Positions 2,559 through 28,548 of a DNA stretch of 30,358 nucleotides are shown here, one piece after another. The DNA is from a virus. The stretch is taken from the IMG/VR virus record IMGVR_UViG_3300006752_000136, positions 1 to 30,358 of that record; one strand, written 5' to 3'. Positions within the stretch are counted from its first letter, which is position 1, and the number at the start of each line of letters is the position of its first letter. The position numbers were made by a program, and so were the translations under genes. The notes under the pieces were generated by a model. It ran no database searches. It was given only the letters and a program-made list of their open reading frames with translations, and was not told the DNA's origin.

Positions 2559-2566
2559 TATCTTTG
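2559..2566 (+). promoter_or_regulatory. Bacteroidota-type promoter -7 element (TATCTTTG)
   Basis: TATCTTTGC matches the TAnnTTTG consensus. Exactly 4 nt separate it from the ATG at 2571, so transcription should start at or next to the start codon and give a leaderless mRNA for the 1097-aa gene. No clear -33 TTG element is seen. Confidence 0.65.
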
Positions 2567-2570
2567 CTTT

Positions 2571-5500
2571 ATGCATAGTCGTAAACGAAGAAAGGCAGGT
2601 TTTGCACCTGTAAAGAGGTATGTTGACGGTGGTGTTATGGATTGTCCAAACCCACCTTGCCCACCACCTTCTCCAGATAGAGTAAAATCACTTATAGATA
2701 GCGGTATGTGGAAGCTCGGACCTAAAGGTGAGCTTTTGAGGCTATCTGCAGAGGAGATCAACCAAAAGAACTTTGAGACTTCTAAGGCTACGGCCATGGA
2801 GGAGCTTGCTGTAGAGGAACCAGCTACGTTTGCCCCTACAGAAGTTGGGTTTATGACCCCTGAAAGGAAGGATTACTTGGAGACCAGGGCTGGTGAGCTT
2901 ACCCCAGAGGAGGCTAGGGAGTATGCAACTACGTCTTTTGACCCATTTGAGGGTCCAAACGTTGTATTCGGTATGGCTGCGGGGGCTACCCCAGTAGATC
3001 CTGTTGGCCAGTTACTTGGTAGAGGACTTAAAGCAGCTGGTGATGCATATAGGGTACTGAAAACACCTATTGTCCCTGTTATGGATGAGGCTAGGATACA
3101 GGCTCAGATGGCTGTAATCAGAGATCAGTACAATATCCCATACGCAGACATTGTAGACGGGACCCCAAACACCCTTGAGAGATACAGACAGCAAGCTGTT
3201 GAGCAGCTCGTAGGTAAGAATGCAAGCTCTGAGGCTATTGCTCGTGCCGAGTCTCAGATCGATGCAGCTGTAGAGGGCTATATGCCTAAGGCTATCGAAG
3301 AGATCATGAAGAACTCAGAGGGGAACATCTTGAATGTCCCTAATGATACAAGAAGGCCAGAACTAGATAGAGTCAGAATGAGGTTCCTCAACCCGAACTC
3401 TAAGATTTGGCAGCAAGCTAACAAGGAGGGGATGATCCCCACAAACAACCTGGTTCAGCTCATGAAATCTGATGGCATGTCTGAGCTTGAGAGGGGAGTT
3501 CTTGAAGAAGCTGTCTTTGGATCACCTATCTACGACAAGTCTGGTAACCTTCTTGGTGGTGATGAAGCTATAAAGGCTCAAGAAGCAGTCATGTCTGCTA
3601 TACTGAGGGCAGGTGGTACAGAAACAAAAGAGTTTGCCAGCGGAGATATCTCTAAGTATAGAATCAATCTCAATCAGCTGAAGGGGTTGTCTGAGATGAC
3701 TAGCATGACCTCGTCACCTATCAGGTCATTTGCCTTGAACACTGACTCTCAAGATCATTTCGGATCTAGAATAGGTGTTCAAAAAGATATATATATGGGA
3801 AACATGTATTCAAACTATGGTTTGAATAGAATAGGATACAATAATGCTGATTCAAAGACTTTCGTTGTTGGTAGTGATGACTTTTCTTCTGGTGTAAACC
3901 ACTTTGATAGGGGTGAGCTTTCTCACTTTAGGGTATTTACCAACGACAGTCCCCCTCTTTTGAATAGAAATTTCCCAGGAACTAAAATAGATGTACCGAC
4001 TGAGTTTGCATCGATTAGAGTGGGACGTAACGTAGGTGCCCAGGGAGCTAATTTGAACTGGTTCCAAGATGCGAGCAGTTTTCCTGGTGGTATGGGATAT
4101 AGAAGAGGAGGCAATATGATTATGCCTAGCGGAGATGAGGGGATAAGTGAAAGTGTTTCTAATCTACTATCTGGACAGGGTTTCTTGGAGGGTGTTATTA
4201 GAAACGTTAGAAGTGGTATGAACAGTCTAAGCGACATCACCACGAGTGCATCTGGAATAGTAAGAAACATAAAAAACGTTCAAAACAGGGCCGCCGACGT
4301 TAGTGCTGGCAGAGGCTCCCTTGTTGGACCATCTGGTGACAGTTCTATCAGGCAACTACTTGAGTTTGCCAATCTACCAAATAGAAGAGAGCTTGTAAAC
4401 AATGCCATGCGAGGCGTAGAAACCTTTGCTACGGAGATCAATTCACGGTTAGATAATTTAGTTGAAAGCGTATCTAAGGAGCAAGAAGCTTTGGCTAGAC
4501 TGGGTGAAGCTCCTGTTTATAAAGATGCGCCAGGTAATAAATTGGCTGGCCTTGACGAGGCTAATAAGTACTTGTCCCTGAATAGTGACATTTATTTTGA
4601 CCTTCGTCAATCCACCCCATTTCACAGAGTAAAAGATAACTTCAGGGGTTACGATTTAATGATTGATCGTGCCAACAGCGATTTCTCATCTGGGTCATGG
4701 GCTGATAATGATTTAACGGAGTCACTAGGTACTTTGGAGGGAGATGTAATCCCTACAGCAAAGAACCGTTTTGTTGATAAACTTGAAAATCAAATAGCTG
4801 ATCTCAGCACTATTGTTCTCAAACCAAACACCCCTCCACAAGTAGTGGATGCGGCCCATAATCTGAGGCTTAAACTCAATGAAGTTAAGAACAGGGGCCA
4901 AGAATCTTTTGAGAGTATGCAGAATCTTGCTGGGGAGATATTTGATCTTCAGGACTACTTGATGATTGAATATAATTCAGCTTTTCAACGCGCTGCTAAA
5001 AGAGGAGTTCCAGACAACATTAGAAGGAAGACTGCTTTTGAGGAAGTGGAGGCTAAATATCAAGATTCTATTGATGATCTTAAGAGGCTTGTTTTGGAGC
5101 TTGAGGCTAATAGAACCAATGCTACATTGGCTCTAATGGACGCTGCTGAATCTATTAATAGCATGAATGATGACGTTGTAAGATCAGTACCAGATTTGTA
5201 TGAATCAGCTAAAGGTGAGCTGAAGAATCGAATTGACAATGCTCTTCAGGATCAGACAGCTCTAGACTATTACGATATACTTCAATCTCAAACCCGCATT
5301 CAAACAGAGGCGGGTAAAGTTAGAGAGTATGTTATGTCGGGAGATATAAACAATCCAACTCTTAATAAAATATTCCTTGAAACACCTGATGCAGATAGGT
5401 TCTACGTTTCAGAGATTCAATCTGACTTTGTTCAAAGGTCTAAAGGATCTAAATCAGGAGAGATGAATGTTAGATCTTCTGTTATTGACTCGAAGGCTAC

Positions 5501-5864
5501 GACCCAAAAGGGTGCTCGTATGGAGCTAGACTCCTTTCAAAAGAACTGGAGAACAAAAACCATTCAGCAAGCTGTCCTTCAAGGGCGTAAGGCTGGTAAG
5601 AATGAGATCCTATTCCCTACGTACAAAACAGCAGATAATATTCAGGCATGGAGCGGTTCTAAAGACACTGGTGAAGCTGGTGCTGGAAATAGAATTACAT
5701 ATCAGGGTATGGATAAGCACATCCGAAAGGCTACTGGTGTAAAACCATACAAGGTTGTTGATCCTCAGGGTAATGAGTGGTGGGCTATCAAGCTCGATCC
5801 AAACCAGAAGTATGAGTTCCCAGACTTCAGGGATGGTGGACGATTCCGTTTGAGGAAAAGATGA
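2571..5864 (+). CDS. Large polyvalent virion-associated protein, 1097 aa
   Basis: The longest gene in the window. The N-terminus is basic (MHSRKRRKAGF) and followed by a YVDGG motif and a Cys/Pro-rich segment (about residues 24-34). Much of the rest is helical, with long charged stretches at about 600-900. A HFR motif at 452-454 and an EIQSDF motif at 948-953, followed by a Gln/Arg-rich helix and an NEILFPTYKTAD segment, resemble the EIQSDW module seen in large polyvalent proteins of phages, some of which are injected with DNA. The C-terminus ends in FRDGGRFRLRKR. Such proteins are usually internal virion or ejected proteins; this role is inferred. It is probably translated from a leaderless mRNA. 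The next promoter begins at the base after its stop. Confidence 0.7.
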   Translation: MHSRKRRKAGFAPVKRYVDGGVMDCPNPPCPPPSPDRVKSLIDSGMWKLGPKGELLRLSAEEINQKNFETSKATAMEELAVEEPATFAPTEVGFMTPERKDYLETRAGELTPEEAREYATTSFDPFEGPNVVFGMAAGATPVDPVGQLLGRGLKAAGDAYRVLKTPIVPVMDEARIQAQMAVIRDQYNIPYADIVDGTPNTLERYRQQAVEQLVGKNASSEAIARAESQIDAAVEGYMPKAIEEIMKNSEGNILNVPNDTRRPELDRVRMRFLNPNSKIWQQANKEGMIPTNNLVQLMKSDGMSELERGVLEEAVFGSPIYDKSGNLLGGDEAIKAQEAVMSAILRAGGTETKEFASGDISKYRINLNQLKGLSEMTSMTSSPIRSFALNTDSQDHFGSRIGVQKDIYMGNMYSNYGLNRIGYNNADSKTFVVGSDDFSSGVNHFDRGELSHFRVFTNDSPPLLNRNFPGTKIDVPTEFASIRVGRNVGAQGANLNWFQDASSFPGGMGYRRGGNMIMPSGDEGISESVSNLLSGQGFLEGVIRNVRSGMNSLSDITTSASGIVRNIKNVQNRAADVSAGRGSLVGPSGDSSIRQLLEFANLPNRRELVNNAMRGVETFATEINSRLDNLVESVSKEQEALARLGEAPVYKDAPGNKLAGLDEANKYLSLNSDIYFDLRQSTPFHRVKDNFRGYDLMIDRANSDFSSGSWADNDLTESLGTLEGDVIPTAKNRFVDKLENQIADLSTIVLKPNTPPQVVDAAHNLRLKLNEVKNRGQESFESMQNLAGEIFDLQDYLMIEYNSAFQRAAKRGVPDNIRRKTAFEEVEAKYQDSIDDLKRLVLELEANRTNATLALMDAAESINSMNDDVVRSVPDLYESAKGELKNRIDNALQDQTALDYYDILQSQTRIQTEAGKVREYVMSGDINNPTLNKIFLETPDADRFYVSEIQSDFVQRSKGSKSGEMNVRSSVIDSKATTQKGARMELDSFQKNWRTKTIQQAVLQGRKAGKNEILFPTYKTADNIQAWSGSKDTGEAGAGNRITYQGMDKHIRKATGVKPYKVVDPQGNEWWAIKLDPNQKYEFPDFRDGGRFRLRKR

Positions 5865-5872
5865 TATATTTG
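5865..5872 (+). promoter_or_regulatory. Promoter -7 element (TATATTTG)
   Basis: TATATTTGC starts at the base after the TGA of the preceding gene and ends 4 nt before the ATG at 5877. The whole intergenic space of 12 nt is therefore promoter plus spacer, and the mRNA should be leaderless. Confidence 0.75.
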
Positions 5873-5876
5873 CAAT

Positions 5877-6326
5877 ATGGCTACACTTACGGTATCGATT
5901 CAAGAAGAGATTACCATTAACGGTAAGGATAGGGGGAATACAAACAGCATTAGTATTACCTCTGTAACCGAAACCTTCAATAGAGTTCTCACGGCTTCAG
6001 CCACAGAACAAAACATTATTGAGTTTCAGGCTACCAATCCATCGGGTGGTGCTCTTGCTAACGGTACTTGTCAGTACTTGAGAGTCACCAACCTTGATTC
6101 TTCTAACAACGTTGACTTGAGGGTTCAAACTTCTACAGATACAAAAGAGTATCTGGTTAGAATTGGTGCTCTCGAATCATTCATCTTGTTCAATGACACG
6201 ATGGATGTAAACGCCACAACAGCAAATCTGGATGGTGTTATCGATCTTAATCAGATTGAAGTGATTAAAGCCAAAGTACCAACAGCTTCTACAGCTGACA
6301 TTGAAATCTTCGCAGTAGCAACATGA
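5877..6326 (+). CDS. Small beta-rich virion protein, 149 aa
   Basis: A 149-aa protein, rich in Thr, Val, Asn and Asp and poor in Lys, with alternating hydrophobic patterns that suggest a beta-sandwich. The segment CQYLRVTNLDSSNNVDLRV, then an ESFILFND turn and a VEV-like end, matches the layout of two other small proteins in this window (21023 and 21424), so these look like diverged paralogs. Related small proteins of marine phages are virion components, perhaps decoration or fibre-base proteins; the exact role is unknown. It is expressed from its own promoter and coupled by ATGA to the next gene. Confidence 0.6.
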   Translation: MATLTVSIQEEITINGKDRGNTNSISITSVTETFNRVLTASATEQNIIEFQATNPSGGALANGTCQYLRVTNLDSSNNVDLRVQTSTDTKEYLVRIGALESFILFNDTMDVNATTANLDGVIDLNQIEVIKAKVPTASTADIEIFAVAT

Positions 6327-7390
6327 GAACTAGATTTAGAGACGGAGGCCTTTATTACAACATGGGTGGTAAGTACGGGACGGGTGGTATGTACCCATCT
6401 TTCCAAGGTGCTGGCCAGTTTAATGGTAACGGTGACGGTGACCCCAAAAAGATTAAGAGCGCTAACACCAACAATGTTGACTTCAACTCTGGAGACGACA
6501 CTGTAAAGAGTACTCGAACTTACACCGATGGTCCAACTACTGGTGAATTCACTGACTTTGCTTCAGTCCCTGCTTACAGAAAAGCCATGAAGCAGGGAAA
6601 GGAAATATCGGCTACAGAGGCACTTCTCGACAGACTCAGCCAGGGTAAGGTTCAAACTCGACTTGTTGACGAGAAAGGAAGGGAGATTAAAGATGAAAGT
6701 GACTACACTAGATTTATCGAAAGGAAAAAAGAGGCTCTAAAAAAAGGTCTCCTCTCAGGAGATATTGATAGGAAGACATTTGAAAAACAATATGAGACCC
6801 TCAAGGGTGAGGCATCTGCATTCCCAGAGTACGTTCAGGCACAAGGTGAAAATGAAGCTACTAGGAATATATATGGGCGTGTCTCTGAATCGAAAGACCC
6901 TGAAGCTGTAGTAGGAAAGCGTCTTGAGGGAGAGTCTCATTGGTTTAATAAAAATGACGCTAAGTTTGGTCCAGGCGGATTTAACGTTCACAACCCAGGC
7001 CACGTCATGGAGTATCAAATGATGTATAACCAGCTAGCTGCTCCTGGTGAAGAGATTACGGTTGACGGAAAGTGGGGTGAGCAAACTCAGTCGGCAACAG
7101 TCCCAATTAGAGAGTCTGAAAGAGAGGAGCTCGCTGGCGGCGTTGATCCCAACCTCGAAATGAGGCTTTATCAAGAAAAGCCTTCAGGTGGCTGGGATCA
7201 AGAGGAGACTGGCGGTGGTGACTATCGTGGTGGATACGGCAGTCAACGGCGGCGGCGCAGAAAAGGCGGCGGTGGCGGTGGTGGTGGTGGTTGCATCCCT
7301 GGCAGACCATGTGCCGCCTACAATGAAAATGGTGGTATCCCAAAAATGAGAACCACATTTAAGGACGGTGGTGTCTATTACATGAGATAA
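6323..7390 (+). CDS. GG-motif protein with peptidoglycan-binding-like segment, 355 aa
   Basis: Starts with MRTRFRDGGLYY and ends with MRTTFKDGGVYYMR, so nearly the same motif marks both ends. The N-terminus carries further GG motifs (NMGGKYGTGGMY, 13-24). A segment around residues 225-258 ending VDGKWGEQT (from 247) resembles the repeat of PG_binding_1 domains (helix, then V-D-G-x-W/F-G-x-x-T). Near the C-terminus is an Arg run followed by nine Gly residues and a CIPGRPC loop. A virion or lysis-related protein that contacts the cell wall is plausible, because the M15 endolysin follows closely. Start overlaps the preceding stop as ATGA. Confidence 0.6.
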   Translation: MRTRFRDGGLYYNMGGKYGTGGMYPSFQGAGQFNGNGDGDPKKIKSANTNNVDFNSGDDTVKSTRTYTDGPTTGEFTDFASVPAYRKAMKQGKEISATEALLDRLSQGKVQTRLVDEKGREIKDESDYTRFIERKKEALKKGLLSGDIDRKTFEKQYETLKGEASAFPEYVQAQGENEATRNIYGRVSESKDPEAVVGKRLEGESHWFNKNDAKFGPGGFNVHNPGHVMEYQMMYNQLAAPGEEITVDGKWGEQTQSATVPIRESEREELAGGVDPNLEMRLYQEKPSGGWDQEETGGGDYRGGYGSQRRRRRKGGGGGGGGGCIPGRPCAAYNENGGIPKMRTTFKDGGVYYMR

Positions 7391-7392
7391 TT

Positions 7393-7554
7393 ATGCAAGT
7401 AAGGAAGAAGACATCCATGTCCTTTGAAGGCGGAGGTAAGTACCCAGGCTGGCGCAAGGACAAAAGAAAAGCTAGACAAGCTAAGCGTAAAAGAAGACGA
7501 CTTGCAAGAAAGTTGAGTAAGGGTTGTAGCGGTGGCAAATGCTTCGCTAACTGA
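7393..7554 (+). CDS. Small highly basic protein, 53 aa
   Basis: A 53-aa gene two bases after the previous stop. It starts MQVRKKTSMSFEGGGKYPG, then has a dense Arg/Lys helix (KRKARQAKRKRRRLARK) and ends with a Cys-Gly pair motif, GCSGGKCFAN. About 40 percent of residues are Lys or Arg. It shares the FEGGGKY-type motif with its neighbours. Such proteins could bind nucleic acid or polyanionic partners in the head; this is inference. No homologous family with known function is recognised. Confidence 0.65.
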   Translation: MQVRKKTSMSFEGGGKYPGWRKDKRKARQAKRKRRRLARKLSKGCSGGKCFAN

Positions 7555-7556
7555 TA

Positions 7557-7688
7557 ATGAATAAACACTACTTCAACCCTATCCGTAAAAGGAAAGACCC
7601 TGGAGTAGAAAACGAAAAAAGACGCTTAAACAATGAAGCTGTCAAAAAATCTGTCACTCGTCGAGGTGACAAAAAGCATCACGGCTAA
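7557..7688 (+). CDS. Small basic protein overlapping endolysin start, 43 aa
   Basis: A 43-aa frame starting MNKHYFNPIRKRKDPG, two bases after the previous stop, and rich in Lys, Arg and His. It overlaps the endolysin gene by 56 nt in another frame, more than is usual for this phage, so either it is a genuine overlapping gene or the frame is fortuitous. Its position and basic composition resemble the other small basic genes, which is the main support. Confidence 0.4.
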   Translation: MNKHYFNPIRKRKDPGVENEKRRLNNEAVKKSVTRRGDKKHHG

Positions 7689-8115
7689 GCGATTAGGGAT
7701 AAACAACACACCAGACGATGAGTGGATTATCGAGAATCTCAAAGCGACTGCAGAGCATGTATTTCAGCCTGTTAGGGACGCTTTCGGGTGCCCTATATAC
7801 GTGTCGTCAGGCTATCGTGGACCTGAGCTCAACAGTGCTATCGGTGGGAGTAAGCGCAGCCAGCACATGGAGGGAAGAGCACTTGATCTGGACGCAGACG
7901 TATTCGGACGCTGTACAAACAGTCAGATCTTCAACTGGCTACGAGAGAACGTTGAGTTTGATCAAATGGTGTGGGAATTTGGTGATGACGATAATCCTGA
8001 TTGGGTTCACGTCTCTTTCGTTTATGATGGGGTTAATCGTAAAAGGTGTCTCCGCGCTCGTCGTGATGATGAGGGAAAAGTTTACTACGAAGTAATGTTT
8101 GGAAAATCGCTCTGA
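7633..8115 (+). CDS. Endolysin, M15-family D-Ala-D-Ala carboxypeptidase type, 160 aa
   Basis: A zinc peptidase that would cut D,D or L,D peptide links in peptidoglycan at lysis. Family features seen: N-terminal MKLSKNLSLVEVTKS, typical of phage M15A (Peptidase_M15_3) proteins; ISSGYR-like motif (VSSGYRGPELN, 57-67); the zinc motif SxHxxGxAxD at 76-85 with H78 and D85 as ligands; and a C-terminal WVHVSF with H126 as third ligand. E115 in the WEFG motif may be the catalytic base. Length is normal for the family. There is no signal peptide, so release would need a holin or another route, not identified here. Confidence 0.9.
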   Translation: MKLSKNLSLVEVTKSITAKRLGINNTPDDEWIIENLKATAEHVFQPVRDAFGCPIYVSSGYRGPELNSAIGGSKRSQHMEGRALDLDADVFGRCTNSQIFNWLRENVEFDQMVWEFGDDDNPDWVHVSFVYDGVNRKRCLRARRDDEGKVYYEVMFGKSL

Positions 8116-8116
8116 T

Positions 8117-9016
8117 ATGCTTGGGATACACAACGACTTAGTTCACCACGACCATATTGACTTGTACACTGGGGTTGTCGATCTTCCAGAAGGGTCCACC
8201 GCCGCATATGGTCTTAGAAGGCTTTCTTCTACTTATTTTGGATACGCCTGCAATATCGTAAACCCAACAACTTTGGAGTCCCTTGACGTAAAATTTTTGC
8301 CCAGCGGAGTTATAGATTCAGTTGCTGTAGAGGAGTTTTGCAATGGTACAGATGATGCTTACATCAAAACTTGGTATGACCAAACGGGTCAGGGAAATCA
8401 CCTTGTGCAATCTGACCAATCTCTTCGACCACAGTTAGTAGATAGTGGCACAGTTATTACAAACCCCGATAACGGTAAATTTTCTGCAAAATTTCAGGGT
8501 GATAGCATGGAGACTGCTTCTGCTTTGTCGTTGTTAAACGGGACAATTACAATCGCAAGTTCCGTTATTTGTGTGGCTAAGGCAGACAGTGGTCTTTCTT
8601 CAGACAATCGATTATATACTGTGGCACTTCCAAGTTCTTCTCTTGAGCACAACGCTAGCTTTTTAACTCCAAGCGGAGCAAGTGCTGGATGGAAGGTTGA
8701 TAATTCAGTGATGGGCAACCCTCCTACTAACTATATATCTAGTGACCTTACAGATACATACATACACATGACGTCTCATGTGGTAGTAGCAGTTAAAGCT
8801 GGTTTTAATGACGGCCCAATTTCCACTATTTCTGGGTCGGCCTTGATGGGCGCCGCACCAGACTCATTGTTTTTGGGTAGCACCTCTGACAGCTCTAATC
8901 CAGACAGGTTTAATGGTCTTATTCAAGAGTTTATTATGTATAACAGTGCAAATATTCTAGATGTAGACTTGTTAAATATATCAGCTCAGATAAACTCATT
9001 CTACGGGGTATACTAA
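8117..9016 (+). CDS. Arabinofuranosidase-B-like tail adhesin, 299 aa
   Basis: The N-terminal half has the AbfB catalytic-domain-like pattern (AlfB/GH54, a concanavalin-type fold): AAYGLRRLSSTYFGYA, then an EEFCNGTDDAYIKTWYDQ and a GQGNHLVQ motif. This set is frequent in phage and bacterial adhesins where it serves as a sugar-binding module. The C-terminal half looks like a LamG/ConA jelly-roll, ending LIQEFIMYNSAN. No GH54 activity can be claimed. I chose the ATG at 8117, one base after the endolysin stop, over an in-frame TTG at 8099. Likely a receptor-binding tail fibre or spike. Confidence 0.65.
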   Translation: MLGIHNDLVHHDHIDLYTGVVDLPEGSTAAYGLRRLSSTYFGYACNIVNPTTLESLDVKFLPSGVIDSVAVEEFCNGTDDAYIKTWYDQTGQGNHLVQSDQSLRPQLVDSGTVITNPDNGKFSAKFQGDSMETASALSLLNGTITIASSVICVAKADSGLSSDNRLYTVALPSSSLEHNASFLTPSGASAGWKVDNSVMGNPPTNYISSDLTDTYIHMTSHVVVAVKAGFNDGPISTISGSALMGAAPDSLFLGSTSDSSNPDRFNGLIQEFIMYNSANILDVDLLNISAQINSFYGVY

Positions 9017-9021
9017 AAACT

Positions 9022-9153
9022 ATGGAGGAAGAATTTGACGACATCAGCTTCTTGGATCAAGACAAGCTCAAGAAGCAAGAAGAAAAGATTGAGAAAGGTG
9101 AGATCACCTGCAACACTGATAACCCCGAAGACTGCGAGAGCTGTAGCGGGTAA
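9022..9153 (+). CDS. Small acidic cysteine-containing protein, 43 aa
   Basis: A 43-aa gene (MEEEFDDISFLDQDKLKKQ...) with an acidic N-terminus, a charged helix and a C-terminal cysteine cluster (C30, C38, C41), which could bind a metal or form disulphides. It has an A-rich leader (taaaaact). Its TAA is immediately followed by the stop of the leftward gene at 9154. No family is recognised. Confidence 0.6.
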   Translation: MEEEFDDISFLDQDKLKKQEEKIEKGEITCNTDNPEDCESCSG

Positions 9154-9576
9154 TTACTTCTCTAGCCTATTGTAAAAAGCCTGAACAAACATTCGGGCTT
9201 TTTGCGTTATAGCATACCTCACCCTGTAGTTGTATTTCGTCTCCTCTCTGAATAGGTGGTCTTCTCTGGTTTGAGACGGGGTCATCTTATCAAAGTGTTT
9301 GTAGATATACCCTTCTTTCATAAGTGGATATACGATACGCTCACCTATTTTTCCAGGGGAGTACCCAAACTCTTCTGCTGCGTACTTCAAAGTCCAGAAC
9401 TCTAGATCATACGCCCATAGCAGGAAGTATATCTCAGTCTGGAACAGGATGCCTTTCTCTTTTTCCTTAACTAACTCTTTCCTAAGGTTTTTGAGGTAGT
9501 TCTTGTTTACGTATCTTTGGTTAAGACGTGAGCTCTCACGGAAGAGCTTCTTTTTGGAAACCTCACTTTTAGGCAT
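9154..9576 (-). CDS. Winged-helix transcription regulator candidate, 140 aa
   Basis: The only leftward gene inside the structural region. The N-terminus is highly basic (MPKSEVSKKKLFRESSR), then a helical core: ILFQTEIYFLLWAYDLEFWT, AAEEFGYSPGKIGERIVYPLMKEGYI (recognition-helix region) and a beta-wing followed by YAITQKARMFVQAF, the layout of MarR/PadR-like winged-helix proteins. A DNA-binding regulator of phage transcription is likely; the target is unknown. A TATCTTTG element at 9605-9598 lies 21 nt upstream, inside the opposite gene. Its start is 4 bp from the rightward ATG at 9581. Confidence 0.65.
   Translation of the reverse strand: MPKSEVSKKKLFRESSRLNQRYVNKNYLKNLRKELVKEKEKGILFQTEIYFLLWAYDLEFWTLKYAAEEFGYSPGKIGERIVYPLMKEGYIYKHFDKMTPSQTREDHLFREETKYNYRVRYAITQKARMFVQAFYNRLEK
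9174..9203 (+). terminator. Bidirectional intrinsic terminator
   Basis: A 12-bp stem (AAAAAGCCTGAA pairing with TTCGGGCTTTTT, one T-G wobble) with a 6-nt loop. It ends in a T run on the plus strand and an A run that becomes a T run on the minus strand. It lies inside the 3' end of the leftward gene, 20 nt after the stop of the rightward gene at 9153, so it should end rightward transcripts and perhaps also act on leftward ones. Confidence 0.75.
9512..9519 (+). promoter_or_regulatory. Candidate promoter -7 element (TATCTTTG) for the 9581 gene
   Basis: Matches TAnnTTTG and lies inside the leftward winged-helix gene, 61 nt before the ATG at 9581. This would give a leader of about 55-60 nt. It is identical to the elements at 2559 and 9598. 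Confidence 0.45.
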
Positions 9577-9580
9577 TGAA

Positions 9581-10123: not shown

Positions 10124-10124
10124 G

Positions 10125-10274
10125 ATGAGCAAGAAGTCAAAGGGTTTGGGTGACACCGTAGAAAAGATCACCACAGCAACTGGATTGAAGAAACTTGTAG
10201 ATCGCATGTCTGAGGACTGCGGCTGCGATGAGAGAAAAGAGTACTTGAACGAGAAGTTCCCGTACAAGAAATGA
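10125..10274 (+). CDS. Small phage protein with DCGCD motif, 49 aa
   Basis: A 49-aa gene starting MSKKSKGLGDTVEKITTATG, with a DCGCDERKEYLNEKFPYKK end. The pattern GLGDTVEKIT..TG and DCGCD is common in small proteins of Bacteroidota phages; no function is known to me. The CxC pair could bind a metal. It is coupled to the GroES-like gene by an ATGA overlap. Confidence 0.6.
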   Translation: MSKKSKGLGDTVEKITTATGLKKLVDRMSEDCGCDERKEYLNEKFPYKK

Positions 10275-11248: not shown

Positions 11249-11325
11249 CGGCGAGTATCTCCTCAAGCTTATACCTTGTAGAAAGAGTAACTGGTCACAT
11301 GTGGGTTCAAGTCCCACCTCGCCGA
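11249..11325 (+). tRNA. tRNA-like gene with atypical D/anticodon region
   Basis: A perfect 7-bp acceptor stem (CGGCGAG with CTCGCCG), U8-A9, and a perfect 5-bp T-arm GTGGG, loop TTCAAGT, CCCAC, with discriminator A and no encoded CCA. The inner 43 nt do not give a normal D-arm and 5-bp/7-nt anticodon arm. The best alternative is a 4-bp stem CAAG/CTTG with the 7-nt loop CTTATAC (anticodon would be UAU, Ile, at 11270-11272), leaving no D-arm and a 22-nt variable region. It is either a degenerate tRNA or an unusual functional one. A promoter for the next gene begins 6 nt downstream. Confidence 0.5.
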
Positions 11326-11331: not shown

Positions 11332-11339
11332 TATATTTG
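11332..11339 (+). promoter_or_regulatory. Promoter -7 element (TATATTTG)
   Basis: TATATTTGC followed by ATT and the ATG at 11344, 4 nt from the element: a likely leaderless start. The sequence around it (TATATTTGCATTATGGCC) is identical to that at 19584-19601. Confidence 0.75.
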
Positions 11340-11343
11340 CATT

Positions 11344-12374: not shown

Positions 12375-12448
12375 GCGCTCGTAGCTCAGTTGGATAGAGC
12401 ATCTGCCTTCTAAGCAGACGGTCACAGGTTCGAATCCTGTCGGGCGTA
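12375..12448 (+). tRNA. tRNA-Arg(UCU)
   Basis: A standard 74-nt cloverleaf: acceptor GCGCTCG with CGGGCGT (G-U and U-G wobbles included), U8-A9, D-arm GCTC/GAGC with loop AGTTGGATA, anticodon arm TCTGC/GCAGA with loop CTTCTAA (anticodon TCT), T-arm ACAGG/CCTGT with loop TTCGAAT. CCA is not encoded. It reads AGA, a codon very frequent in the structural genes here. It sits 10 nt after the lipoprotein stop and 11 nt before TerL, so it is likely cut from a longer transcript. Confidence 0.95.
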
Positions 12449-12459
12449 CAATTTAATTT

Positions 12460-14584: not shown

Positions 14585-14592
14585 TATATTTG
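14585..14592 (+). promoter_or_regulatory. Promoter -7 element (TATATTTG)
   Basis: TATATTTGC lies 4 nt after the terL stop and 22 nt before the ATG of the portal gene, giving a short leader that contains AAAAGGAA-like purines. Confidence 0.75.
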
Positions 14593-14614
14593 CAGATATA
14601 AAAGGAATTCCCAA

Positions 14615-19582: not shown

Positions 19583-19583
19583 T

Positions 19584-19591
19584 TATATTTG
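19584..19591 (+). promoter_or_regulatory. Promoter -7 element (TATATTTG)
   Basis: TATATTTGC lies 1 nt after the TGA at 19582 and 4 nt before the ATG at 19596. The mRNA of the basic gene cluster should begin at its start codon. Confidence 0.75.
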
Positions 19592-19595
19592 CATT

Positions 19596-20988: not shown

Positions 20989-20992
20989 TCAC

Positions 20993-21000
20993 TATATTTG
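20993..21000 (+). promoter_or_regulatory. Promoter -7 element (TATATTTG)
   Basis: TATATTTGC lies 4 nt after the previous stop and 22 nt before the ATG at 21023, with an A-rich leader (CTAAAAACAAAAATG). Confidence 0.75.
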
Positions 21001-21022
21001 CACTAAATAACTAAAAACAAAA

Positions 21023-21424: not shown

Positions 21425-21828
21425 TGGCTAGCGTTCGCGTCACACTTGGGATTTCAAGTGCAGACGTTCTGAGCACAGCCCTTGGCCTCAACGTGGCCAC
21501 GACGCTTGTCGCAGACTCTGGCACTATGATCCGCGCTAAGGTAGCAGCTACCTCTGGCGCAGGAAGCGGAATCACTGTATACAAAGCAGACGACAAGGAT
21601 ACGTCAGCCTACGTGTATGTCAACAATCTCGCTACCGAACACGAAGATTACATTTACGTCTATAACGACACCGACTCTGATGCATCTGTTGCTAAAATTG
21701 CTGGCGGTCAGTTTGCTTTTATTCCTATTGCGGTAGATAAGACCTTTAAGGCTTTCGGCACCAAAGTGAATCAGATCATTGAGTACGGTGTGTTCGGACA
21801 AGACAACCCAGCTAATACACTCGGATAA
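21424..21828 (+). CDS. Small beta-rich virion protein, 134 aa, paralog of preceding gene
   Basis: A 134-aa protein of the same size and order as its neighbour: AYVYVNNLATEHEDYIYVYN, then GGQFAFIPIAVDKTFKAFG and IIEYGVFGQ. The match of hydrophobic, NNL/KNT and FIP positions indicates a tandem duplication followed by divergence. A virion role is inferred. TAATG overlaps on both sides. Confidence 0.65.
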   Translation: MASVRVTLGISSADVLSTALGLNVATTLVADSGTMIRAKVAATSGAGSGITVYKADDKDTSAYVYVNNLATEHEDYIYVYNDTDSDASVAKIAGGQFAFIPIAVDKTFKAFGTKVNQIIEYGVFGQDNPANTLG

Positions 21829-22427
21829 TGGCTAAACTTTCAAATACAGCTACAGCAAACCAGGCAGCTTTTGGGCAGCTTGGTTCTGCTTTTATGGATG
21901 AATTAGGACATACAATACATGCGCCTGAAGGCATGGCTATTGTTGCTATTACTTTTCTGGCGGATGCGGTTCTTAGTGAGCTTATTGCAGAAGATCCAGA
22001 AAGAACAATCAACACTGCTCAGGCGGCTAACAGCAAAGGATTCTTTACGACTGTTGTAAATGGAGCTGTAAGTTCCGCTGCAAACATTGTGGTAGATGAC
22101 ACTGTTGTTGCTGCACTGGGACTCCAGCTTGGAGATGAAGTGTATGACGAAGACGGCCTGCTTCTGGGTACCGTCATTACATTGGAAACTGGTAGTGACG
22201 CCAACACATTTACAATTAGCGCAAACTGCACTCTGGCAAATGATGAGGTAATTTCATTCCTCCGTCCTGGAGTAAGCTCTGGTGGCCGAGGGGTTGGTGG
22301 TATGCAGATTGCGACTGGCGGTAGTGACAATTCATTCCCTAGAGGTCTTACGATTTACGGGAGATGGTTGTCTGTGTCTCTGCAGGCAAACGCCCCACAG
22401 GGAGGTCTTATCGCCTACTTCGGATAA
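21828..22427 (+). CDS. Virion protein, possible head decoration protein, 199 aa
   Basis: A 199-aa Ala/Gly/Val-rich, acidic protein. It has HAPEGMAIVAITFLADAVL (about 30-48), a LGDEVYDEDGLLLGTV loop and a FPRGLTIYGRWLSVSLQ segment near the end, a layout common to marine-phage proteins found next to scaffold and capsid genes. No enzymatic motif. It probably decorates or reinforces the head; this is by context. Confidence 0.55.
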   Translation: MAKLSNTATANQAAFGQLGSAFMDELGHTIHAPEGMAIVAITFLADAVLSELIAEDPERTINTAQAANSKGFFTTVVNGAVSSAANIVVDDTVVAALGLQLGDEVYDEDGLLLGTVITLETGSDANTFTISANCTLANDEVISFLRPGVSSGGRGVGGMQIATGGSDNSFPRGLTIYGRWLSVSLQANAPQGGLIAYFG

Positions 22428-22454
22428 TTAAATCAAAACAAATAATTTAATACA

Positions 22455-23615
22455 ATGGAGAATACAATCCAACCCCAAGAAGAGCAGTTTCAGAAAGCAG
22501 AGATCTTTGATACGCCAGAGCAGCTTGCAGCTAGCATGGCACAAGATGATCAGCCACAAGTGGAGTCTCAGCCAGAACAACCTGCAGATACCCCATATGT
22601 AGATCCTGAGCCTGCTCCCGCTGAGGAGCCTTCTACGCTTGAGCAAATTGCTCAGCCAGAGGGGAATCAACAAGAAGAATACATCCGAAACAGAGAGTAC
22701 AATCAAAACAACTCTAGTAACGGATATGAAGAAGATTATAGCGACGAAGAAATTGAGGCAGCGGTCTACACGTATCTCAGCGAAAGGCTGGGTAGAGAGA
22801 TCAATAGCTTCGACGAACTAAGTCAAAATAATAGTGTTGACGAACGTGTTCAGGCTATTGCCGATTTCGTTCAAGAGACTGGGAGAAACCCAGAGGACTG
22901 GTTTACGTATCAATCAATGAATACGTCCGAAATGGACGATCTCACAGCGATACGAGTTCAGATGTCTCAGGACTACCCCAATCTGTCTTTTGAAGAGATC
23001 AACATGTTGGTCGGCAGCAAATACAAGTTGGACACTAACGTCTATGACGCTCAGGATGTCCAGCTGTCTACGCTTCAACTCAAGATTGACGCCGAAGATG
23101 CTCGTGGAGGTATCGAAAAGATCCGAGAGCAATTCAAGGCGCCAGCACCACGAGAAGAGCAAGGACAAAATCGTGATGAAGATGCTATGTACATCGACGA
23201 TGCTTGGATGCAGAATATGGCAACCGAAACGGATGCTATGGAGGCACTTGAGTTTGACCTCGGTGGAGATAAAACCTTCACATACTCTTTGGGTGACGAC
23301 CACAGACGTCGACTCATTCAGAGAAACTCTCAACTAGACAACTTCTTTGACAACTATGTCTATGAAGATGGCTCATGGGATTACGACAAACTTAACTCTC
23401 ACTTTGCCGTGATTGATAACATTGACACCATTGTGTCTTCGGCTTATCGTCAGGGTCTCGGTGATGGTCAAAAGACTGTTGTGAGCAACGCGGCGAATGT
23501 ATCTATGGATACTTCTCCGTCTTCATCCCAAAATCTTAATCAAGAGAATCCTTTGGCCTCGCAGGTCAGAGATCTCATTAGAGGTAACTCCTCTAAAATG
23601 ACTTTTAAAATCTAA
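22455..23615 (+). CDS. Scaffolding protein candidate, 386 aa
   Basis: A 386-aa acidic protein just upstream of the capsid gene. The first ~85 residues are disordered and rich in Gln, Pro, Glu and Asp; the centre is helical with DYPNLSFEEINMLVGSKY and a charged helix AEDARGGIEKIREQF (about 195-225); the end (AYRQGLGDGQKTVVSNAANV and a short RDLIRGNSSKMTFKI tail) is basic. Position, acidity, helix content and a basic C-terminus that can bind capsid suit a head scaffold. A-rich leader (CAAATAATTTAATACAATG). Confidence 0.75.
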   Translation: MENTIQPQEEQFQKAEIFDTPEQLAASMAQDDQPQVESQPEQPADTPYVDPEPAPAEEPSTLEQIAQPEGNQQEEYIRNREYNQNNSSNGYEEDYSDEEIEAAVYTYLSERLGREINSFDELSQNNSVDERVQAIADFVQETGRNPEDWFTYQSMNTSEMDDLTAIRVQMSQDYPNLSFEEINMLVGSKYKLDTNVYDAQDVQLSTLQLKIDAEDARGGIEKIREQFKAPAPREEQGQNRDEDAMYIDDAWMQNMATETDAMEALEFDLGGDKTFTYSLGDDHRRRLIQRNSQLDNFFDNYVYEDGSWDYDKLNSHFAVIDNIDTIVSSAYRQGLGDGQKTVVSNAANVSMDTSPSSSQNLNQENPLASQVRDLIRGNSSKMTFKI

Positions 23616-23629
23616 AAAACTAAGCTAAA

Positions 23630-25051
23630 ATGGCTAATATTCTTTCAGGGCAGCCAGCTGTTGACGGTGCAGCAGCAGGTTCAAACCCAGGGGCGTTTAG
23701 AGTAGACCCCCAAACCTACACCACTCTTGATGCTCTCATCAAGACCACTAAGGACCACGTCCTTCCAGACCTCGTAGAGACCTACGGTGACCAAGGTATC
23801 ACTGGCTTTTTGAAGCTCACTGGAGCTATCAACGCTGGTGGAACTTCTGACCAGTTCGACTGGTGGGAATTGGGCCGTCGTCACGCTACGTTGGCTTACA
23901 CTGGCGCAACAATTAACGCGAACTCTGCAGAGGACGTAGCTCTTGCTGATGAAGATGCCACTAAGACTAAGTTGCAGGAAAACGATGTCGTAATGGACTC
24001 TGTCTCTGGAACTCGTTTTATCGTTCAAACTGGAGATGGCTTGGCTTCTAACGGAACAACCGCTCAGGTTACACTTTTGAAGCTTGATGGAGATGATGTT
24101 GATGCCGCTGACATTGATGCTTCTGGTGGTGGTACTTTGATTAAGTTGGGCAACATGTACGCTCAGGGTACTGAGCAGCCTCACGCTTTCGAAGACATCG
24201 GTTTGCGCAAGTACAGCAACTCTTACATGATCGTTAAGGGTCGTTACGAAGTCAACGGTTCTCAAGCCACTAACATTGGCTGGGTGAACGTTGGTGGTGG
24301 CGAATACCGCTGGTTCATGAAGGGTGAGCAAGAGGCTCGCGCTAAGTTTGAAGATCAGAGAGAGATGATGTTGCTCTTTGGTGAGAAGAGACCAGCTGGT
24401 AATGGTACTGACATCACAAGCGGCGAGCTCGCTGGTTCTGAGGGCTACTTCTCTGCTATTGAAGACAGAGGTATCGTTGTCCAGAACGCTAACGCTAACC
24501 CATTGGATAGCTTCGCTGAGTTTGACGACTTGATCTTGGAGTTGGATAAGCAGGGTGCTCCTTCTGAGTACGCTATGTACTTGAACAGAAAGCAAGACTT
24601 GGCTATCGACGACATGCTCGCGTCAGGTATCGCTACTTCTGTCACTGCAGGCTTGCCTGGTCAGTTCGGAGCGTTCCAGAACGATGCTGACATGGCCGTC
24701 AAGTTGGGCTTTAAGTCCTTCACTCGCGGTGGTTACACGTTCCACAAGCACGACTGGAAGTTGTTGAACGATCCAACCTTGTTGGGTGCTTCTAACTTCG
24801 TTCAGGGCGCTATGGTTCCTTTGATGAATGTTACTGACGCTCGTTCAGGCGTAAGAGTTCCTGCTCTCTCCATGTTCTACAAGGAGGCAAACGGATACTC
24901 TCGTGAGATGGAGCACTGGGTAACTGGTGGTGGTGTCTTGGGTCACACGAACAACGGTGACACTGGTAAGGACACTGCGACGTTCCACTACCGTTCTGAG
25001 ATCGGTTTGTGCGTCCGCGCTGCCAACCAGCACGTAATGATCAAGGGATAA
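23630..25051 (+). CDS. Major capsid protein, 473 aa
   Basis: A 473-aa protein 14 nt downstream of the scaffold gene. It has typical capsid-family features of this phage group: an N-terminal flexible stretch with PQTYTTLDALIK, a FDWWELGRRHATLAY segment, EYRWFMKGEQEARAKFED (about 223-241) and an internal EFDDLILELDKQGAPSEY helix. Its codon use differs from the other genes (many C-ended codons such as AAC, TTC, GAC; Leu as TTG or CTC; Arg as CGT or CGC), as expected for the most abundant product. No cleavage site is evident. HK97 fold is expected but not visible. A hairpin follows its stop. Confidence 0.85.
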   Translation: MANILSGQPAVDGAAAGSNPGAFRVDPQTYTTLDALIKTTKDHVLPDLVETYGDQGITGFLKLTGAINAGGTSDQFDWWELGRRHATLAYTGATINANSAEDVALADEDATKTKLQENDVVMDSVSGTRFIVQTGDGLASNGTTAQVTLLKLDGDDVDAADIDASGGGTLIKLGNMYAQGTEQPHAFEDIGLRKYSNSYMIVKGRYEVNGSQATNIGWVNVGGGEYRWFMKGEQEARAKFEDQREMMLLFGEKRPAGNGTDITSGELAGSEGYFSAIEDRGIVVQNANANPLDSFAEFDDLILELDKQGAPSEYAMYLNRKQDLAIDDMLASGIATSVTAGLPGQFGAFQNDADMAVKLGFKSFTRGGYTFHKHDWKLLNDPTLLGASNFVQGAMVPLMNVTDARSGVRVPALSMFYKEANGYSREMEHWVTGGGVLGHTNNGDTGKDTATFHYRSEIGLCVRAANQHVMIKG

Positions 25052-25066
25052 TTAACCTGAAGTAAA

Positions 25067-25090
25067 GGGACGGGGCTTCGGCCCTGTCCT
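25067..25090 (+). terminator. Stable TTCG hairpin after the capsid gene
   Basis: A 10-bp stem with a TTCG tetraloop (GGGACGGGGC, TTCG, GCCCTGTCCT). There is no T-run after it, so it is not a classic intrinsic terminator. It may slow exonuclease decay or partly terminate, reducing the following gene relative to capsid. Confidence 0.5.
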
Positions 25091-25112
25091 AATCTTCATA
25101 AACGACAACATT

Positions 25113-25598
25113 ATGGTAAAAACATTCCCAGGACCACAAGTGGTTTCTAAAAGAGTTGTTACAGATGAAGCTTTGCCCTTGGCGGGTGCTTCAGGCGCAG
25201 GCTCTCAGCACGGCTTGATTCAACCAGCAAATAGTATCATTGAGAAGATTTATGTAAGAGTTTTGGAGGCCCCTGTAATCGCATCAGGAGACCTCGGAAT
25301 TGAAGTTGGAACTGAAACTTCTGCTCCGTTTGACAACATCATTGTTAATGCAACAGGAGATGACAACTTAATTGATGAAGGAACCACTCTTCCTGTAAAT
25401 ACTATCTTTGAGCTTACATCAGGAACTGCTGACACTACGTGGGTTGGTCAGGGACTGGCTACTGGTGACGCTGCTTCTGAAACAGCTTCTAAAATTGTAA
25501 CAGACGAAACAGCTGTAAACTTTCAGTTTACAACTTCTACTGCGGTAACTACTCGCGGTAAGTTTGAAGTTTCTTTTGTCTTTAGAGTATTTGAGTAA
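25113..25598 (+). CDS. Virion protein, 161 aa
   Basis: A 161-aa protein, Thr/Ala/Val-rich, with an N-terminal PGPQVVSKRVVTDEALPL and a beta-sandwich-like rest ending in GKFEVSFVFRVFE. No known domain. Its place between capsid and a strong terminator, with no own promoter, indicates a head accessory protein, perhaps a decoration protein or head-fibre base. Start: ATG after an A-rich sequence. Confidence 0.6.
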   Translation: MVKTFPGPQVVSKRVVTDEALPLAGASGAGSQHGLIQPANSIIEKIYVRVLEAPVIASGDLGIEVGTETSAPFDNIIVNATGDDNLIDEGTTLPVNTIFELTSGTADTTWVGQGLATGDAASETASKIVTDETAVNFQFTTSTAVTTRGKFEVSFVFRVFE

Positions 25599-25620
25599 TA
25601 CTGAAGTGTTACATTGAAAT

Positions 25621-25647
25621 AGGCCCTGCGGGGCCTTTTTCTTTTTT
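25621..25647 (+). terminator. Intrinsic terminator
   Basis: AGGCCC, loop TGCG, GGGCCT, then a T-rich tract to 25647. The next promoter begins at 25650, so one unit ends and the next begins within 3 nt. Confidence 0.9.
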
Positions 25648-25649
25648 AG

Positions 25650-25657
25650 TATATTTG
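25650..25657 (+). promoter_or_regulatory. Promoter -7 element (TATATTTG)
   Basis: TATATTTGC directly after the terminator tract and 16 nt before the ATG at 25674. Predicts a short leader of about 10 nt. Confidence 0.75.
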
Positions 25658-25673
25658 CAGTACTTTTAATGCA

Positions 25674-26924
25674 ATGAAAAAATTCTTCCTATTCAAGCGA
25701 AAAGACGTCGACGTATCGTCCGTCGAAGCCTCTGATAATGGAGAGGGACTTGACCTCTTTGCGGTATCTGCGGATCTGCTTGCGTTCATGACGGCCTCTC
25801 TTGGTAGAGTTAACATTGTATTTAATGACGCCACCCTTTATGAAGAGAGTAATCTTTTGGATGGCGAATCTTTCAAAAAGACTTCTGTATCTGTCGCGTG
25901 TGAGGCTGGAGGCGAAGCTAACCTGATAGAATCTATCATGAACTTCGTCTCCTCTGACCTCGTAAAGACAAGGGTCATGAGGTTTGATGCCGTTACAGGT
26001 AAGACCAATGTCAAGGAGGCTAATATTCAGTCTTTTGATGATGTGGTTAGTGAGTTGAAAACCCTCCCAGTTAGAAGAACCACAAAAGAGACCAGCTCTA
26101 AAACATTTATCGGTGGAACATCTGGCACAGCATTCGGAACTGGAAATTTGATCGGAGACATTGATTTTGGAGAAGGAAACAAACCAGACATAGACTTCAC
26201 CGAGGAGAACATCACATCTAGCGGAGGCAATGTTACTGGCTGGACCAATGGAGGGTCTCTTGGGGCCGCATATGATATAGGCACTATTGTAGGAACAATA
26301 CCTCTTCAAACAGGCGGGACTAAGGATAGCGGAGGATTGGCAACAGATTGTGCTGTGTTAGACTCTGGCGACGCTCTTACTCTTGATGCTCCATATGTTA
26401 GGTCTGGTGAGTTCACTCTGTTCGCTGTTGTCGGTAAAACACCCGCAGAAATTGAAGACAACCCTAAGATTGGGTTCTTGTTCCAGGGGTCGTCATCGGT
26501 TTCTGGAAATCAAGGCTTGACGCTAGGGTATTCAGACCCATACAAGACAGACGCCTACTACTTTAAGTTTGCAACCGAGAAAGGAGAGTTTGTGAAGGCT
26601 GCGACTCTTTTCCCGATCATAGATATCACATCTCCGACCTCAGATAAAAAGACATCTTATGTCTTCTTGCTAAGAAGAGATGCACAGAATAACTTGTTTA
26701 TTTATGACAATGAACAGATAGTTGCAAGTGTGCAAGCTAAAACAACAGGTAACTCAGCAAGGACTGATGGGAACCTTGTTGTTAGGCATTTAGGAAACGG
26801 AAATGCTGCAGAAAAGTTTGTGGGCAATGTAGGCCGATTTGGGGTTATCCCTAGAGACATTGGCGCATCTGCAGCTAAGAAGCTTATAACAGATCTTTCA
26901 AAGAAATACACACCTTTAAGATAA
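25674..26924 (+). CDS. Lectin-like virion protein, 416 aa
   Basis: A 416-aa protein in two parts. The N-terminal ~125 residues (MKKFFLFKRKDVDV...) are a mixed alpha/beta domain of unknown function. From about 200 to the end a LamG/concanavalin jelly-roll-like pattern appears: SGEFTLFAVVGKT, FLFQGSSS, YYFKFAT, SYVFLLRRDAQNNLFIYDNEQ, NVGRFGVIPRDIG and LITDLSKKYTPL. Similar C-terminal domains bind sugars on phage tail or head fibres. It starts a new module and may be a head- or tail-bound adhesin. A long antisense frame (25689-26309) is judged spurious. Confidence 0.6.
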   Translation: MKKFFLFKRKDVDVSSVEASDNGEGLDLFAVSADLLAFMTASLGRVNIVFNDATLYEESNLLDGESFKKTSVSVACEAGGEANLIESIMNFVSSDLVKTRVMRFDAVTGKTNVKEANIQSFDDVVSELKTLPVRRTTKETSSKTFIGGTSGTAFGTGNLIGDIDFGEGNKPDIDFTEENITSSGGNVTGWTNGGSLGAAYDIGTIVGTIPLQTGGTKDSGGLATDCAVLDSGDALTLDAPYVRSGEFTLFAVVGKTPAEIEDNPKIGFLFQGSSSVSGNQGLTLGYSDPYKTDAYYFKFATEKGEFVKAATLFPIIDITSPTSDKKTSYVFLLRRDAQNNLFIYDNEQIVASVQAKTTGNSARTDGNLVVRHLGNGNAAEKFVGNVGRFGVIPRDIGASAAKKLITDLSKKYTPLR

Positions 26925-26934
26925 TTTAATTTAA

Positions 26935-27768
26935 ATGGAACAAACCAAAAAGCGCCCTGGGCGGCCCAAAGCCCAACCAAAAGTTGAAGAAACCGCTGTT
27001 GCGGAATCACCTTTGACTAAGAAGACTTTGCCCATCAAGCGCAAAGAAGTTGTAAACCAGAACTCAGAGTACGAGCTTCTTAGAAAGACTGGCATTGTAT
27101 ACATGCTTCCTCAGAAGGGAGTCACTGTATATGACGAAGAAAACGACACTGTTCGTGAGCTTAGATACTGCCCTAACGAACCCTCTGTATGGAGAGATGA
27201 GCAATCAGAGAATGCTACACGTCAGTCTGTAATTTTCAGGGAAGGAAGAATCTTTGTCCCTAAGTCTCAGCCCAACCTTCGTGTATTCCTTGAGAAGCAC
27301 CCTCTGAACACTGCAAATGGCGGTAAGATGTTCAGGTTGGTTGATAAGAAGCGCGATGCTGAGGTTCAGCTCAAAAAGGAGTTTGCCCTCACTGATGCTA
27401 TTGCAATGGTTAGAGATAAGGACATTCAGGAATTGCTTCCTGTAGCGATGTACTTTGGTGTAAACATCAATGCATCTGTCTCTGACATCCGTTACAACTT
27501 GCTTCAGATTGCTAAGAAGAAGACCGCCGAGTTTGTAGAATCATTTGATTCGCCTCAGGTTCGTACTAGATCTTTGCTTCAGCAGGCTGCTGACTACCAG
27601 ATGGTCAAGATGACCAAGGATTCTGTCAAGTGGTTTGACACAAATCAGATGATTGTATCCGTGCCTGTTGGCCAGGAACCGATCGACGTTTTCACTCGAT
27701 TCTGTCTGACAGAAAAAGGAGCTTCGGTTCTATCGACCCTAGAGGAGCGGTTAGAGCGACTCGCTTAA
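26935..27768 (+). CDS. Conserved phage protein with AT-hook-like N-terminus, 277 aa
   Basis: Residues 5-15 (KKRPGRPKAQP) look like an AT-hook (core RPGRP), then a Pro/Lys-rich linker to about 40. The rest is a compact domain with VYMLPQKGVTVYDEENDTVRE (about 56-76), RYCPNEPSVW, a LTDAIAMVRDKDIQELLPVAMYFGVN segment and an FTRFCLTEKGASVLSTL end. This whole pattern recurs in Bacteroidota phages next to structural genes, as I recall; no function is known to me. A DNA-binding virion or head protein is plausible. Strong terminator 5 nt after the stop. Confidence 0.6.
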   Translation: MEQTKKRPGRPKAQPKVEETAVAESPLTKKTLPIKRKEVVNQNSEYELLRKTGIVYMLPQKGVTVYDEENDTVRELRYCPNEPSVWRDEQSENATRQSVIFREGRIFVPKSQPNLRVFLEKHPLNTANGGKMFRLVDKKRDAEVQLKKEFALTDAIAMVRDKDIQELLPVAMYFGVNINASVSDIRYNLLQIAKKKTAEFVESFDSPQVRTRSLLQQAADYQMVKMTKDSVKWFDTNQMIVSVPVGQEPIDVFTRFCLTEKGASVLSTLEERLERLA

Positions 27769-27772
27769 AGAG

Positions 27773-27799
27773 AGGGCCCTTCGGGGCCCTTTTTCTTTT
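27773..27799 (+). terminator. Intrinsic terminator
   Basis: AGGGCCC, loop TTCG, GGGCCCT, then T-rich. A 7-bp GC stem. The next promoter starts 2-3 nt after the T tract. Confidence 0.9.
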
Positions 27800-27801
27800 C
27801 G

Positions 27802-27809
27802 TATATTTG
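27802..27809 (+). promoter_or_regulatory. Promoter -7 element (TATATTTG)
   Basis: TATATTTGC exactly 4 nt before the ATG at 27814, hence a likely leaderless mRNA for the connector module. Confidence 0.75.
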
Positions 27810-27813
27810 CTGT

Positions 27814-28548
27814 ATGGCAAGTATTGATAGAGTATACAGAACGGTAAAGAACCTAGCTAATAAAGAGCAGAAGGGTTTTATCACTCCGTCGGTGTTCAAC
27901 CGATTTGCCGTCATTGCTCAGCAGAACATCTACAACGAGCTGTTTACTGAGCTGGTAGAGGCTAAAAAGCTCAGCAGGCAGAACGTTGATCCAGGAAGAG
28001 ATAAGTCCCCAAGGAAGAGGACGCTAGAGGATCTTTCTAACTTCGTGGTTAGGCTGAACAACTACAACCCTTCATCTTCAGGTTCTAATGTTTTCTTGAA
28101 GCCCATTAACTTCTCACGCTTGATCTCAATAAGTAAGGGTGGAGATAGGTACAGCATTGACAAGACAAACATTGAGGTTGTATATGATGTAGAGAAGATG
28201 GATAGAATCCTGGGTAGTAATCTTTCTACCCCAACGAATTCCTTTCCAGTGGCTCTCATCTCAGACGAGATCGAGGTGTTTCCAGATACAGTTCAAACTA
28301 TTGACATCACGTACTACAGAACACCAGGTGGTATGCAGAACGGGGCTCTTGTTGATTCTCCACCACAGTGGGTTGCTGAAGATCTAGCCGTCGGTAACAT
28401 CGAGATTGCCAGCCCCTTAAGCATAGATTTCATGCTCCCTGAGCACTTTAGCTCTGAGATAGTCTATGAGATATGTAAAATGATTGGCATCAGCATCAAC
28501 GACGGTGGTATGGTACAGGTGTCAGCACAAGAAGAAGCTAGACGATGA
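27814..28548 (+). CDS. Connector/neck-type protein, 244 aa
   Basis: A 244-aa protein starting MASIDRVYRTVKNLANKEQKGF with an FNRFAVIAQQNIYNELF helix: a beginning common to an unknown-function protein of Bacteroidota podophages that lies just before the adaptor gene. The centre is beta-rich (SNVFLKPINF; ITYYRTPGGM) and the end is helical (FSSEIVYEICKMIG). A head-tail connector or ring protein is likely from order. Coupled by ATGA to the next gene. Confidence 0.6.
   Translation: MASIDRVYRTVKNLANKEQKGFITPSVFNRFAVIAQQNIYNELFTELVEAKKLSRQNVDPGRDKSPRKRTLEDLSNFVVRLNNYNPSSSGSNVFLKPINFSRLISISKGGDRYSIDKTNIEVVYDVEKMDRILGSNLSTPTNSFPVALISDEIEVFPDTVQTIDITYYRTPGGMQNGALVDSPPQWVAEDLAVGNIEIASPLSIDFMLPEHFSSEIVYEICKMIGISINDGGMVQVSAQEEARR

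Follow-up and report, generated by a model that had tools for sequence, protein, structure and literature searches.

Phage transcripts lacking a leader are already known. The messenger RNA (mRNA) of the lambda cI gene starts at its AUG (PMC4965119), and the Thermus thermophilus phage phiYS40 has leaderless middle and late transcripts (PMC3594737), along with a reported shift in host initiation factors, IF2 going up and IF3 down. In Deinococcus-Thermus and Actinobacteria, a -10 box situated ~10-12 base pairs before the start similarly yields leaderless mRNA (PMC3160421, PMC12340547), and a 2011 survey placed Bacteroidetes among the clades with many 'atypical' signals (PMC3160421). Here, we analyze IMG/VR virus record IMGVR_UViG_3300006752_000136, the complete 30,358 bases of which constitute the window, and in particular a promoter motif, TATATTTGC, that lies directly before several of its start codons. 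Our reading, held with considerable though not complete confidence, is that host RNA polymerase produces leaderless mRNAs from such promoters for selected, probably late, genes. As in phiYS40, the genes concerned would be structural and, judging from position, probably late, but phylum and promoter type differ, and here around 40% of the detectable promoters would be leaderless, side by side with leadered ones. The start-adjacent boxes of Deinococcus-Thermus and Actinobacteria differ in serving cellular genes and in reading TANNNT, while lambda cI is a single regulatory gene as opposed to a set of structural ones. In the open-licence literature searched, neither leaderless transcription nor mapped TAnnTTTG promoters were described for Bacteroidota phages; it is this Bacteroidota TAnnTTTG version of the phenomenon that was not found there.

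In Bacteroidota hosts, the -7 element of Flavobacterium johnsoniae reads TAHHTTTG at -12 to -5, followed by 4 or 5 nucleotides (nt) to the start site, and no -33 element is evident (PMC6847099). The F. psychrophilum box likewise occupies -12 to -5, and a leaderless share of 5.5% is published for that species (PMC9723704). Leaders under 10 nt make up 3.7% in B. thetaiotaomicron (PMC7366714), and leaders over 10 nt 87% in F. johnsoniae (PMC6847099).

By counting the motif in the window we found seven TATATTTGC sites, as reported in the initial annotation, all of them on the plus strand and against 0.18 expected from shuffled sequences. The looser TAnnTTTGC occurs at 12 sites (4.6 expected), of which 11, and not the eight first reported, point rightward; the sites at 2825, 9802 and 26564 were considered as promoters and set aside, being intragenic and background-like. 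The -7 elements upstream of genes are the seven TATATTTGC sites and one TATCTTTGC, all conforming to TAnnTTTG. Measured from the first T of the motif to the A of the ATG, the distance is exactly 12 nt at five of these eight (2559, i.e. the TATCTTTGC site, 5865, 11332, 19584 and 27802), which confirms the constant gap of 4 nt between TAnnTTTG and ATG noted earlier, and each ATG is the earliest ATG, GTG or TTG of its frame. That chance does not account for this spacing, as had also been argued, is borne out by a probability of ~6e-5 for at least five out of eight sites sharing one distance, if distances were uniform over 8-37. By the published spacing of 4 or 5 nt (PMC6847099), distances of 12 and 13 would place the first transcribed base on the A of the ATG. 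The leaders of the three other promoters, counted from a start site set 12 nt after the first T, come out at 18 (14585), 18 (20993) and 12 nt (25650) instead of the 16-22 nt given before. The pooled sites show no -33 TTTG element, in agreement with the initial annotation, and such an element was not treated as required for assignment to Bacteroidota sigma-A; scanning for sigma-70 promoters carries no information in Bacteroidota.

Relatives were collected by means of a terminase scan and a scan with the protein of gene 28545, giving 160 viral loci, and were supplemented with longer stretches of 11 contigs (~3 megabases in total). After deduplication, each TATATTTGC site was scored by the first following ATG that opens at least 40 codons. 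Gene starts thus derive from open reading frames (ORFs) and homology, the related sequences are not independent, a bias for which non-redundant counts correct in part, and fractions vary with the motif chosen. Out of 275 sites, 79 were found at distance 12 and 17 at distance 13, with four at 14-23 and a broad mode at 24-37. The histogram relative to ATG that had been proposed as a check is consequently bimodal, with a near-empty gap, while the reversed motif gave no distance peak in the same sequence. Hardly any sites are at distance 11, in keeping with a need for the A of the AUG to be transcribed. When the motif was relaxed to TAnnTTTG, 198 sites were found at distance 12, and 196 of these were TAHHTTTG, in which both middle positions lack a G.

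This makes the promoters closely similar to those of Bacteroidota sigma-A (sigma-ABfr), which share the TAnnTTTG -7 element with almost no G at -10 and -9, the T/A-rich stretch near -16 to -18 and the lack of a visible -33 element, although host leaders are mostly longer than those of this clade. A phage-encoded sigma factor or polymerase reading the same promoters would have the same leaderless outcome, and the phage motif is indeed more uniform than the host consensus, position -10 of leaderless ortholog sites being T in 98% and position -9 being A in 85%, together with T at -16/-15. Its core, however, is exactly the host sigma-A element, leadered genes use it as well, and we recognized no gene for such a factor in the window, albeit that the record is probably a genome fragment. 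We consider a phage factor unlikely and transcription by host RNA polymerase the better explanation.

Whether a gene is leaderless or leadered appears to be a property of the gene, as judged from orthologs collected by tblastn. Orthologs of gene 27814, at protein identities of 28-65%, had the motif at distance 12 in 42 out of 67 cases and at 13 in another seven. Corresponding figures were 19 of 22 at 12 and one at 13 for gene 19596, 20 of 28 and one for gene 11344, and eight of 25 at 12 for gene 5877, while the sole ortholog of gene 2571 with a comparable start was also at distance 12. Portal gene 14615, on the other hand, had none of 70 orthologs at 12, five at 13 and 61 at 25-37, and gene 21023 none of 53 at 12 and 47 at 23-39; in both, leader length drifts. 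Essentially no such promoter precedes the operon-internal genes (terminase, 28545, 29459 and 17053). With near-duplicates removed, leaderless cases numbered 15/20 for 27814, 8/10 for 19596 and 10/17 for 11344, versus 2/38 for the portal and 0/20 for 21023. The 25674 family is of mixed mode, with 15 orthologs at 12 and 11 at 24. Its window member has a two-codon ORF, ATGCAATGA, in the leader (25668-25676, plus strand), overlapping the start codon; it was dropped as a general mechanism, being found in few relatives.

Start codon context also separates the two modes. At 110 leaderless ortholog starts the -1 base was C or T in 98% and A in 0%, whereas A, the commonest base there, was found in 60% of 162 leadered and 55% of 627 internal starts. 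The A-rich context that other starts of these phages have is thus missing from leaderless ones, and a pyrimidine at -1 would favor initiation exactly on the A of the ATG. A fixed spacing at many genes could equally be produced by a signal tied to the start codon, i.e. if TATATTTGC at -12 were a translation signal or a regulator site and ordinary leaders came from promoters further upstream. The same motif, however, also precedes other genes by 23-37 nt, the stretch in between being empty, the 25674 family switches between 12 and 24, and the motif exactly matches the -7 promoter element of the phylum. Moreover, a terminator-like hairpin lies directly 5' of the promoter in 48 out of 67 orthologs of 27814 and in 21 out of 35 promoter-bearing orthologs of the 25674 family. 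In front of 27814 the upstream transcript should end at this hairpin, which abuts the motif and leaves no space for an upstream leader. Such a translational or regulatory role is accordingly regarded as very unlikely. Even less probable is that transcription starts at these promoters and translation at later, internal starts, so that leaders would exist after all. Gene 19596 does have an internal methionine at residue 11, but genes 11344, 5877 and 27814 have none nearby, and in the orthologs of 27814 conservation of the N-terminal codons begins at the first residues and is weaker at third positions, giving coding periodicity directly after the ATG.

The comparison with host genes that had been suggested was made in two sets of Bacteroidota genomes, 30 from Flavobacteriaceae and related marine groups and 28 others. 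In the former, 1,252 TATATTTGC sites had an ATG at 12-37, with 46 at distance 12, which is close to uniform and differs strongly from the 80 out of 315 in the clade (Fisher p ~4e-32). In the latter, distance 12 was ~1.5 times as frequent as the per-position count at 14-23, as compared with ~20 times in the clade, and none of this amounted to a clear distance-12 peak across the 58 genomes. After ORF filtering, the leaderless share was ~40% of the detectable promoters in the clade versus 5.8% in Bacteroidota host loci, which were taken around EF-Tu and are not a random sample; the latter figure agrees with the published 5.5% (PMC9723704). Among other phages, the cultured Polaribacter phage P12002L, of another lineage, had four of ten scored promoters at 12 or 13, while phi38:1, phi19:3, crAss001 and B40-8 had almost no promoters of the leaderless type. 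The habit may therefore have more than one origin, or may extend more broadly through the flavobacterial phages of the sea. That the window belongs to a Bacteroidota phage, as first proposed, is supported by promoter type and by the hosts of cultured relatives, namely Flavobacterium, Maribacter and Cellulophaga, with Tenacibaculum as a further host genus. Two of these cultured groups, the Flavobacterium elemo phages and Maribacter phage Panino, themselves have a few genes at distance 12 whose starts are annotated. The portal protein had no relative in a bacterial genome collection, and no provirus or host was identified by that route.

Several points weigh against leaderless transcription as set out here. 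The control genomes may be the wrong bacteria for this clade, and some leaderless genes adjoin the preceding gene, so that longer transcripts could also cover them. Motif forms other than TATATTTGC fill the 14-22 zone weakly (65 sites, against 236 at 12/13), and the five portal orthologs at distance 13 lack the -1 pyrimidine. This portal subgroup (e.g. L071 at 7231, L072 at 11358, L076 at 3937 and L064 at 4728) carries GCAAAAATG, and perhaps has a 1-nt leader or a different start. Nevertheless, bimodal distances, spacing kept between orthologs, the -1 pyrimidine and host controls without a peak together favor the leaderless transcription originally proposed.

As for the late expression also proposed, 35 out of 36 leaderless sites in the 11 longer relatives are on the terminase strand, in loci that were collected around structural genes; contigs of uncultured phages were merged where their stretches overlapped, solely to locate sites relative to the terminase. 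Late timing is suggested by this position. A virion structural protein, small basic proteins and proteins without assigned function make up the main leaderless families.

The sequence itself shows the motif and its spacing, the two distance modes, their conservation between orthologs, the start context and the location on the structural-gene strand, and from these we infer the exact start site, the translation of leaderless mRNA, the late timing and transcription by the host polymerase. These promoters belong to the Bacteroidota housekeeping type (TAHHTTTG at -7, no -33) and would most likely be read by host RNA polymerase, which at five window genes and at their counterparts in many relatives would start on the A of the ATG or one base earlier. 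The resulting mRNA would be translated by 5'-AUG initiation, without reliance on the A-rich context that other starts of the phage have. Other promoters of these phages would give leaders of ~11-25 nt, those of 2-10 nt being avoided. A likely use is to let chosen structural and small basic proteins be made from separate transcripts, each driven by a minimal promoter, which in two gene families usually comes directly after a terminator.

Promoters and terminator-like hairpins in the window (distance is from the first T of the motif to the A of the ATG).
Feature	Position	Strand	Motif	Distance (nt)	Leader (nt)	Remark
Leaderless-type promoter, gene 2571 (1097 amino acids)	2559..2570	+	TATCTTTGC	12		-7 element, 3-nt spacer
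Leaderless-type promoter, gene 5877 (149 amino acids)	5865..5876	+	TATATTTGC	12		
Leaderless-type promoter, gene 11344	11332..11343	+	TATATTTGC	12		small basic protein (phrog_6437)
Leaderless-type promoter, gene 19596	19584..19595	+	TATATTTGC	12		small basic protein (phrog_727/4689)
Leaderless-type promoter, gene 27814	27802..27813	+	TATATTTGC	12		virion structural protein (phrog_14543)
Leadered promoter, gene 14615	14585..14614	+	TATATTTGC	30	~18	portal
Leadered promoter, gene 21023	20993..21022	+	TATATTTGC	30	~18	
Leadered promoter, gene 25674	25650..25673	+	TATATTTGC	24	~12	
Terminator-like hairpin	27769..27794	+				T tract runs into 27802 promoter
Terminator-like hairpin	25621..25636	+				just 5' of 25650 promoter

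The window otherwise holds a tailed-phage structural cassette with terminase (phrog_6681) and portal (phrog_6547), virion structural proteins (phrog_13704, phrog_14543 and phrog_13977), a GroES-like protein and an endolysin. Positions 1-2400 have a higher G+C content and a strand composition unlike the rest, are without long plus-strand ORFs, and probably hold minus-strand genes (513-854 and 879-1331). A tRNA-Arg (TCT) at 12375-12449 (plus strand) is located directly 5' of the terminase gene, as it is in the relatives checked. Another conserved RNA, tRNA-like and missed by ARAGORN, is found at 11249-11325 (plus strand) and in many IMG/VR contigs (L292-L365), its core TATCYCCTCAAGCTTATACCTTGTAGAAAGRGTAA occurring in at least 119 viral contigs. 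It has an anticodon-like loop, CUUAUAC (UAU), and no normal D-arm. Among 59 distinct copies, six of the seven acceptor-stem positions are paired in all 59, through several types of pair, and covariation is also seen in the T-stem and at one Y-R pair. A canonical tRNA-Ile(UAU) takes its place in some relatives, so that the RNA may be an unusual tRNA-Ile. Located 5' of gene 11344, it was considered for a part in the mechanism, which was rejected, as such a promoter is missing behind most of the copies elsewhere. Lastly, TATATGTGTCCACTTTT recurs 5' of genes, at ~11231 in the window and in the relatives L016, L019 and L024.

Bacteroidota make no use of Shine-Dalgarno sequences in translation, and few mRNAs are leaderless in these bacteria, which the clade appears to infect. 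The clade itself would seem to be a large group of uncultured marine Bacteroidota phages in which many structural genes have a host-type promoter fused to the start codon; some 40% of its detectable promoters sit there, gene by gene, and this is conserved over deep divergence. The 25674 family offers natural pairs of leaderless and leadered orthologs for studying how ribosomes choose starts, which also bear on the avoidance of 2-10 nt leaders and on phage competition for translation, and the distance rule can be used to correct gene starts in these genomes. A more speculative extension, which we think unlikely, is that of a dedicated leaderless late program coupled to an altered host translation that favors 5'-AUG initiation over leadered host mRNAs. 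If true, leaderlessness would be a take-over device in a phylum without Shine-Dalgarno signals.

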